A DNA stretch of 64,000 nucleotides from Planctomyces sp. SH-PL62 (lineage in GTDB: Bacteria; Planctomycetota; Planctomycetia; Isosphaerales; Isosphaeraceae): assembly GCF_001610895.1 (NCBI RefSeq), contig NZ_CP011273.1, forward strand, positions 2,108,001 through 2,172,000, in the 5' to 3' direction. Positions 63,019 to 64,000 of this stretch are shown here, piece after piece. The notes under the pieces are model-generated. The model had not been told where the DNA came from. It saw only the letters and a program-made list of their open reading frames with translations, and did not search any database. Each line of letters starts with the position of its first letter. Positions within the stretch are counted from its first letter, which is position 1. The position numbers and the translations under genes were made by a program.

Positions 63019-63356
63019 TGCGGCCCGCAGGATTCGAACCTGCAACCAAGGGATTCAAGGGCCCCCGCGTTTCCACGGGGCTTGGACTATCTCATCCTCG
63101 CCTTGACCCCGGAGGGGCAGGGGAGGCCGGGCGCTCTCGGCGGGGGTTATCGTTGGGGCTCACCCCGCTAGTCTCTGAACCTTCCTGGCCACCGTTAGCC
63201 CGGCCAGGCTTGGCTGCGGATCGCCGTGCCCCCTCGCGGAGGTTTAGGGTTCCCGCAATTCACCCGGTTCGCGTTCAGGGGTCGCCCCCCGACGCCACCA
63301 TTCTTCGCTCGCGCTTGATTGATGAGTCCCCTGCTCTGCCGTTGAGCTAGGGCCGC
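63019..63356 (-). tRNA. tRNA-Ile(CAU), interrupted by a group I intron
   Basis: The exons (63356-63322 and 63055-63019) join into a 72-nt tRNA: acceptor GCGGCCC/GGGCCGC, D-arm GCTC AACGGCA GAGC, anticodon stem GGGGA/TCCCT with loop CTCATAA (anticodon CAT), variable TGGTT, T-arm GCAGG TTCGAAT CCTGC, discriminator A. It resembles the ileX-type tRNA-Ile with CAU, which is modified by TilS to read AUA, more than initiator tRNA (it has a G1-C72 pair). No CCA is encoded. The intron sits between anticodon position 36 and position 37. Confidence 0.9.
63056..63321 (-). ncRNA. Group I intron (266 nt) in the tRNA-Ile anticodon loop
   Basis: The intron follows the U36 of CAU and ends in a G (CCCTTG). 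Conserved core elements are at the usual order: P-like AATTGCGGGAACCCTAA (63260-63244), R-like GGTTCAGAGACTAGC (63181-63167) and S-like GATGAGATAGTCC (63096-63084). A GUG at 63298-63296 can pair with exon CAU to make P1, with a G-U at the 5' splice site. It is a relative of the Azoarcus tRNA-Ile intron. No homing endonuclease is encoded. Self-splicing is expected. Confidence 0.88.
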
Positions 63357-63532
63357 ATGATCCCCGACGCCGGATCGACGCCCGGGATCGACGACATCAT
63401 CGCCGCTGGCGGCCGGAATGACAAGGCCGGGGCCGCGCGGCCCTTCGAAACGACGAACCGCCGCGAGGGTCGCTCGCGGCGGTCGACGGCTTGTTCGTAC
63501 ATTCGTTCGTTCGCGGATCGACCCGTTCGTCG
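63357..63532. other. Short region between tRNA and desaturase
   Basis: 176 bp without a gene. The tRNA promoter on the minus strand should be about 63360-63400. No repeat or terminator is clear. Confidence 0.25.
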
Positions 63533-64000
63533 TCAGACGTGGGTTTCCTGGACCTCGGCGAGGACTTCCTGCGGGGTCGCGGCGGTGGTCGGCGGGACGG
63601 CCGGGCGGACGTCGGTCTCGATCAGCGAGCCGTCGGCGTTCTTGCGGATCTTGGGGAGCTTGACGTCGCTGGCGACGCCGACGAGTCGCATGGCCTGGAT
63701 CGCCATGTAGGTCGGGTCGACCTCCCACCAGTCCAGGCCGTGGCGGGCCGAGGTCTGGAAGGCGTGGTGGTTGTTGTGCCAGCCTTCGCCGTAGGTCAGC
63801 GCGGCGCACCACCAGAGGTTGGTGGACTGGTCGCGGGTGGCGTGGCTGCGGTAGCCCCAGATGTGGCTCGCCGAGTTCACCAGCCAGGTCGTGTGCAGCA
63901 CGAAGATGGTGCGGACGAACCCGCCCCAGATCATCCAGCTCATCCCCAGGCCGCCGTAATACTGGCCGGCGACGTAGAGCAGGGCGAAGAGGCCCAGCGG
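63533..64000 (-). CDS. Fatty-acid desaturase, C-terminal part (5' end beyond the window)
   Basis: 155 residues visible. The last histidine box of the acyl-CoA/phospholipid desaturase family is GEGWHNNHHAFQTSARHGLD (H-N-N-H-H), preceded by TTWLVNSASHIWGYRSHATR. The final helix LFALLYVAGQYYGGLG at the window edge belongs to the membrane part. The two other His boxes lie beyond the window. It introduces a double bond in fatty acyl chains. The C-terminal 40 residues are Glu/Thr/Ala-rich. Confidence 0.88.
   Translation of the reverse strand, partial: PLGLFALLYVAGQYYGGLGMSWMIWGGFVRTIFVLHTTWLVNSASHIWGYRSHATRDQSTNLWWCAALTYGEGWHNNHHAFQTSARHGLDWWEVDPTYMAIQAMRLVGVASDVKLPKIRKNADGSLIETDVRPAVPPTTAATPQEVLAEVQETHV

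Follow-up and report, generated by a model that had tools for sequence, protein, structure and literature searches.

A group I intron of 266 nt interrupts the only tRNA-Ile2(CAU) gene that we found in this genome and, in the interpretation that we favour with a probability of about 0.93, it is a vertically inherited intron in a single-copy gene. The gene was observed in the window, by which we mean the whole stretch of 64,000 nucleotides that was analysed, where a CAU tRNA on the minus strand (63356..63019) is split after U36 by an insert of 266 nt. The joined exons were recognised by ARAGORN as a 72-nt cloverleaf with anticodon CAT and the seven-base loop CUCAUAA, which confirms the complete cloverleaf that the original prediction, made on this DNA before our analysis, had assembled from two exons; without the intron option, the same program reported zero tRNAs within the window. 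The isotypes assigned by ARAGORN to split genes misplace the splice site and were replaced by the output of a rule-based splitter, which may misplace sites too (its first choice was wrong for several Lys-type loci and for two others); where it erred, the intron boundaries were set from exon conservation. One promoter-like site was found upstream of the split tRNA, against a shuffled mean of 0.0, no terminator-like site was found at the locus, and a plasmid search with the split-tRNA locus gave no match. The gene and its surroundings are arranged as follows:

63533..64000, minus strand: desaturase-like gene, upstream neighbour of the tRNA, running off the window (open reading frame, named by inspection)
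63396..63424, minus strand: promoter-like site, about 40 bases upstream of the tRNA (consensus match only, 9/12 bases)
63322..63356, minus strand: 5' exon of tRNA-Ile2(CAU), 35 nt, position 1 to U36 (cloverleaf and exon conservation)
63056..63321, minus strand: group I intron, 266 nt, first base C, last base G (RF00028 and exon conservation, 40 introns from 40 genomes including that of the window)
63019..63055, minus strand: 3' exon of tRNA-Ile2, 37 nt, A37 to A73, with no CCA encoded (cloverleaf)

The group I identity of the insert was examined by covariance search with the Rfam model RF00028, the check proposed together with the original prediction. The model aligned over all its 253 positions to 63063..63327 of the minus strand with 48.3 bits, slightly below the gathering score of 50, which is a curator's cut-off and not a structural feature; for this reason, Rfam run on the window with default settings reports nothing. 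The E value of the match was 3e-11 in a search of 601 bases and 8e-11 in the genome of 6.78 Mb, in which the Ile2 intron was the sole RF00028 match at E 0.001. Folded by itself, the intron had an energy no lower than that of its shuffles (z = -0.29), and thus the structure is supported by the model match and the relatives, which together bear out the group I call. Moreover, the P, Q, R and S core elements, three of which (P, R and S) had already been pointed out, are all present together with the helices P3, P4, P6, P7 and P8, the set by which a group I intron is recognised. Along the intron, from the 5' to the 3' splice site, we assigned the following elements:

63296..63298, minus strand: internal guide GUG, pairing with the anticodon CAU (P1, with a U36·G wobble at the 5' splice site; paired in 40/40 introns)
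63271..63295, minus strand: P2 hairpin (covarying pairs)
63261..63267, minus strand: P3, 5' strand (RNAalifold)
63252..63257, minus strand: P4, 5' strand, within the P element AATTGCGGGAA (RNAalifold and core conservation)
63224..63248, minus strand: P5 (covarying pairs)
63215..63220, minus strand: P4, 3' strand, within the Q element ATCCGCAGCC (Q exact in 40/40 introns)
63179..63214, minus strand: P6 and P6a (covarying pairs)
63169..63175, minus strand: P7, 5' strand (R element), bearing the G of the guanosine-binding G-C pair (P7 set by hand)
63140..63168, minus strand: P7.1 hairpin, 29 nt, between P7 and P3, motif UGAGYCCCAACRAUAA (near-invariant in 40 introns)
63127..63133, minus strand: P3, 3' strand (RNAalifold)
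63096..63126, minus strand: P8 (covarying pairs)
63084..63089, minus strand: P7, 3' strand (S element; S exact in 40/40 introns)
63056..63081, minus strand: P9 and terminal G (RNAalifold; last base G in 40/40 introns)

In the alignment of the 40 introns, the core is nearly invariant and the outer helices covary. The length of the introns ranges from 252 to 416 nt, the Q and S elements are exact in all of them and R in 39/40, and both the GUG guide and the terminal G, as foreseen by the original prediction, occur in every one. The P1 pair next to CAU/GUG is C-G in 35 introns, U-A in 3 and U-G in 2. In the hand-set P7, six of six pairs form in 40/40 introns, among them the G-C pair of the guanosine site (intron positions 149 and 237). 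The pairs predicted by RNAalifold had changed on both sides in 28 of 64 cases, whereas 300 shuffles, which do not keep the relatedness of the sequences, gave 15.6 on average and never more than 22; P7 and P7.1 show scarcely any variation in the family and, for this reason, give no covariation there. The core sequence resembles that of IC3 introns and the intron lacks a long P5 domain, yet the P7.1 hairpin is present. Subgroup IC3 is defined by a core without P5abc and without P7.1. On the other hand, P7.1 is a known optional group I element (PMC3984707 and PMC4227781) and is listed among the features that separate the classes, so that the intron may belong either to the IC3-like or to the P7.1-bearing classes.

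The identity of the interrupted tRNA was assigned by elimination. A search with RF00005 gave 52 tRNAs in the genome; the intact CAU tRNAs, according to ARAGORN, are one elongator-like Met and two initiator-like tRNAs, and neither a tRNA-Ile(UAU) nor an intact Ile2 is among the tRNAs of the genome. Since the other CAU tRNAs are Met- or initiator-like and no tRNA-Ile(UAU) was found, the split gene is, by elimination, the only tRNA-Ile2(CAU) of the genome and the only AUA-reading tRNA gene found in it, in line with the tRNA-Ile(CAU) originally proposed. The label Met, which ARAGORN gives to the spliced tRNA from its CAU anticodon, would make the split gene that of an elongator tRNA-Met instead, a reading that we consider most improbable in view of the same elimination and of the presence of a TilS-like sequence in the genome. 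TilS is the enzyme that makes the CAU tRNA-Ile read AUA, and it was detected above the family cut-off in 42/45 Isosphaeraceae genomes. In the genome of the window, both halves of the tilS domain are found in two frames (G000:C1:5882568-5883115, L307 and L308), apparently through a frameshift close to a run of G; the match is unbroken in all five congeners and, hence, the frameshift is likely, if not proven, to be an assembly error.

The demand on this tRNA looks small. In fact, AUA accounts for 2 of the 12,614 codons, compared with 410 AUC, in 25 open reading frames picked by base composition, all within the window. With a codon so rare, slow splicing could suffice, and we could not sustain the claim that the intron must splice efficiently and is, for this reason, a candidate small robust ribozyme: a length of about 190 to 270 nt is common in the tRNA introns that we parsed, and the argument from necessity to robustness is weak. 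The same rarity of AUA would suit a split gene that is decayed or silenced, with another tRNA reading the codon, and the splicing of tRNA-Ile2 is a prediction from the sequence. We nevertheless give this explanation very little credit, as the exons are almost unchanged over 40 genomes while the length of the intron varies as reported above, TilS is kept by nearly all the genomes of the family, and the genome yielded no other gene for an AUA-reading tRNA.

The proposal of a planctomycete host was correct, and the named records of the relatives place it in the Isosphaeraceae. To describe the distribution of the intron, we searched 45 genomes of this family, the same that are covered by a search at the level of the order. 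RF00028 gave a match in 43/45 genomes, including 26/26 of good quality, and exceeded the cut-off in 30/45, in some through the tRNA-Lys intron described below; from the reading of the exons, G009 and G035 match the model only through another intron. The Ile2 intron itself is present in 41/45 genomes. A 27-base pattern of the 5' exon, with up to 3 mismatches, occurred exactly once in 40/45 genomes, bearing in mind that an Ile2 copy with more than 3 exon changes would escape it; the 41st genome is G040, in which the D loop is one base longer. Both exons and the intron are complete in 40 genomes, and in G015 the RF00028 match ends 26 bases from the contig end and the 3' exon was not recovered by the pattern. 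None of the 41 genomes with the gene showed an uninterrupted Ile2, and the gene was not found in G009, G027, G035 and G044, whose completeness is 96, 77, 64 and 74, respectively. Within a sample of the phylum, the isosphaeral P7.1 pattern was met in 2/392 genomes, the two members of the family listed in that sample. Among named records, Aquisphaera insulae JC669 has the same exons and intron, as do records titled uncultured Isosphaeraceae bacterium and Isosphaeraceae bacterium, and the record CAMFCM010000088.1 (L232), titled Candidatus Kuenenia stuttgartiensis, carries an isosphaeral Ile2 intron and is probably a mislabelled bin.

Several lines of evidence point to a vertical inheritance of the intron. 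Of the 29 loci with long flanks, that of the window included, 24 have a desaturase-like gene next to the tRNA, and the neighbour on the opposite side is not conserved. The distances between Ile2 introns correlate with those between TilS sequences (rho = 0.618, 26 shared genomes), a value reached by none of 2000 permutations. The tree of the Ile2 introns requires 19 changes of genus, where the minimum is 18 and the shuffled mean 31.4, and the nearest neighbour of an intron is of the same genus in 26 of 30 cases. Moreover, in a midpoint-rooted tree of the cores of 144 introns, the isosphaeral Ile2 introns form one clade with a support of 0.936, made up of 40 introns and 9 named records, some of which come from the same genomes. 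Deep nodes are weak in the tree of the family's introns. These sequence comparisons fit an acquisition of the intron before the sampled family radiated, followed by vertical descent.

It appears highly unlikely that the intron is still mobile and owes its distribution in the family to recent homing. tRNA introns elsewhere are thought to move, as stated in the available portions of PMC4033280 and PMC5733544, and the P7.1 motif is common to viral introns, as detailed below; against this stand the pattern of genera, the TilS correlation and the synteny, and an allele without the intron was not seen in any of the genomes in which the gene was found. As had been proposed for the 266 nt of the window, the intron shows no sign of a homing gene, judged by length: it is too short for a usual one, and among the 40 introns none exceeds 416 nt and the longest stop-free stretch is of 125 codons.

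On the basis of the vertically inherited intron, the expression of the gene could proceed as follows. In the precursor RNA, the guide GUG would pair with the anticodon CAU and would place the 5' splice site after U36, at the U·G wobble; a free guanosine, held at the G-C pair of P7, would attack after U36, and the freed U36 would in turn attack after the terminal G, with the exons joining into a normal tRNA. TilS would then convert the spliced tRNA, presumably through lysidine, to read AUA, and the gene would be essential. The intron would have entered before the divergence of the sampled Isosphaeraceae and would have been inherited vertically since then, probably because the sole copy of the gene depends on intron splicing.

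A second tRNA of the family shows a similar interruption. Intact tRNA-Lys(UUU) is absent from the tRNA list of the genome of the window, in which the sole tRNA-Lys(UUU) gene found is split:

G000:C1:5475399 onward (L175, 1531..1829), plus strand: intron of 299 nt in the tRNA-Lys(UUU) gene

A pattern of the 5' exon of this tRNA matched in 40/45 genomes of the family (G009 has two copies, and two of the three matches in G003 are another tRNA). The gene is split after U34 in 36/45 genomes, the window's included, counting G036 although its contig ends before the 3' exon; it is uninterrupted in 4 genomes of one genus (G017 to G020) and was not found in 5 (G013, G016, G021, G025 and G034). Being natural empty sites, the uninterrupted copies fix the boundaries of the intron. 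The 36 complete Lys introns, two of which come from G009, range from 281 to 338 nt, and the last base is G in every one. By cmscan there was no match to the Lys intron of the window genome (L175), nor to those of L148, L151 and L172, even at E 0.05, and nine genomes have a Lys-type locus matched by RF00028, above the cut-off in three. We assign the Lys intron to group I because its relatives match RF00028 and because P3, P7 and P8 hold with compensating changes: in P3, UA is found in 33 introns and CG in 3; in P7, AU in 26 and CG in 10; in P8, GC in 28 and AU in 8. The pairs predicted by RNAalifold had changed on both sides in 38/86 cases, compared with a shuffled mean of 22.5 and a maximum of 28. 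The tree of the Lys introns agrees with that of TilS (rho = 0.762, 26 genomes); agreement is lower between the trees of the two introns, Ile2 and Lys (rho = 0.357, 30 genomes; 3/2000 permutations). A pattern of the Lys core was found in 29/32 genomes of the family and in 2/365 others of a class sample, where both matches bear two mismatches and a reversed control pattern also matches 2 genomes. The second tRNA-Lys(UUU) gene of G009 (L188, G009:C218) carries an intron near-identical to that of another genus (L161, G015:C380) and is possibly due to contamination of the bin.

Outside the family, RF00028 matched in 41/365 genomes of the sample of the class Planctomycetia. The 46 loci comprise 16 tRNA-Ile2 split after U33, 10 tRNA-Leu(UAA), 2 fMet-like, 2 Asn-like or unsettled, 1 unclear and 15 without a tRNA, 14 of which lie in or adjoin an rRNA match (the exception is L097). 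The tRNA-Ile2 loci split after U33 are L063, L066, L069, L071, L072, L073, L077, L079, L081, L082, L086, L089, L090, L091, L092 and L096, whereas the introns associated with rRNA were observed in L052 to L055, L057 to L060, L064, L075, L078, L083, L084 and L093, with two close together in L060 and L093. The introns after U33 share with the isosphaeral ones the tRNA-Ile2 gene and the class, but the splitter places them at 33/34 instead of 36/37; the different sites suggest a separate insertion, so that introns probably entered the tRNA-Ile2 of Planctomycetia on at least two occasions.

The P7.1 hairpin is not restricted to the family. We had considered it as a family-specific novelty, a view that was ruled out by the occurrence of the motif in non-isosphaeral introns and in viral contigs. 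In a scan of named genomes, at least 18 of 105 non-isosphaeral introns among the matches listed contain the motif, and the control gave 2 matches in 20 shuffle rounds of all 114; the carriers among the matches listed are 11 records titled as Patescibacteria groups, 6 titled only 'bacterium' and 1 Nitrospirae. The motif was also present in 40 viral contigs (L359 to L398), where no tRNA was found in the pieces around it. Eight of these contigs were scanned, and in 7 an RF00028 match above the cut-off covers the motif (L398 gave none); no viral match was obtained with P7.1 in its isosphaeral form. In 19 distinct stems from viral and other non-isosphaeral introns, 98.9% of the cells pair (shuffled mean 64.7%, maximum 73.7%), and the changes on both sides (4/5) and the extra pair types (13) were not above the highest shuffles (4 and 14, respectively). 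Non-viral loci with the motif UGAG.CCCAAC.AUAA include L198, L255, L261, L275 and L290. The other IC3-like tRNA introns with a P7.1 of the form UGAG..CAAC.AUAA have a similar P, Q, R and S core and the same motif, but the tRNA, where parsed, is mostly Asn-like or another and not Ile2. A P7.1 region is also known in tmRNA introns, according to the accessible part of PMC11915505. From these sequence similarities, a past exchange between the lineages that share P7.1 may be suggested. IC3-like introns following an exon that ends in GGCTCAT were also noticed in Chloroflexi (L214, L266, L274, L289 and L300).

The larger outcome is that the Isosphaeraceae have kept two tRNA introns across the family. 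We consider it probable that the family depends on two distinct self-splicing introns, each fixed in the sole copy of its gene, tRNA-Ile2(CAU) or tRNA-Lys(UUU), that the Lys site is undescribed in the literature searched, its intron having been lost or never present in one genus, and that the Ile2 intron lineage shares P7.1 with tRNA introns of Patescibacteria and with viral introns. In the literature searched, whose coverage was partial, with subscription papers mostly outside it, we found no report of planctomycete tRNA group I introns or of a group I intron in a bacterial tRNA-Lys(UUU); a database of group I introns published in 2025 (PMC11835236, seen in part) may contain these introns unnamed. 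Standard annotation misses them, since nothing is reported in the window by Rfam at default settings or by ARAGORN without the intron option, and Rfam misses the Lys intron of this genome. The family offers a natural system, with 40 aligned introns, a genus with the empty Lys site and at least one named strain, Aquisphaera insulae, in which one may ask why such introns persist and what the role of the conserved P7.1 loop is.

The intron of Azoarcus lies at the same site after the anticodon, is about 205 nt long and, to our knowledge, has no P7.1 hairpin, unlike the intron of the window; the comparison is with published descriptions. In the portions available of the respective papers, the intron of the Azoarcus pre-tRNA-Ile(CAU) is described with a CAU tag and a GUG guide (PMC6274277), the same tRNA, anticodon, tag and guide as in the window, and its crystal structures are reported (PMC3984707). 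Group I introns in tRNA-Ile2 are also described for Acidovorax and Burkholderia (PMC8450103, in the part available), and those of tRNA are reviewed from cyanobacteria, alpha- and betaproteobacteria (PMC4033280, likewise); by these descriptions, the Acidovorax and Burkholderia Ile2 introns and the cyanobacterial tRNA-fMet introns were reported genome by genome, whereas here the intron is family-wide and in another phylum. The cyanobacterial 'group I introns' of 22 to 49 nt, one of them in tRNA-Lys(CTT) (PMC5733544, in the part available), were left out of the comparison because they are too short. The tRNA-Leu(UAA) intron of cyanobacteria and plastids, as summarised in the accessible text of PMC4033280, is old and kept at one position in its lineage, as the isosphaeral Ile2 intron is, with a different tRNA and a different site. 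Long-kept tRNA group I introns now extend to a planctomycete family, where the Ile2 intron adds to the known tRNA-Ile(CAU) introns and is unusual for its fixation across the family.
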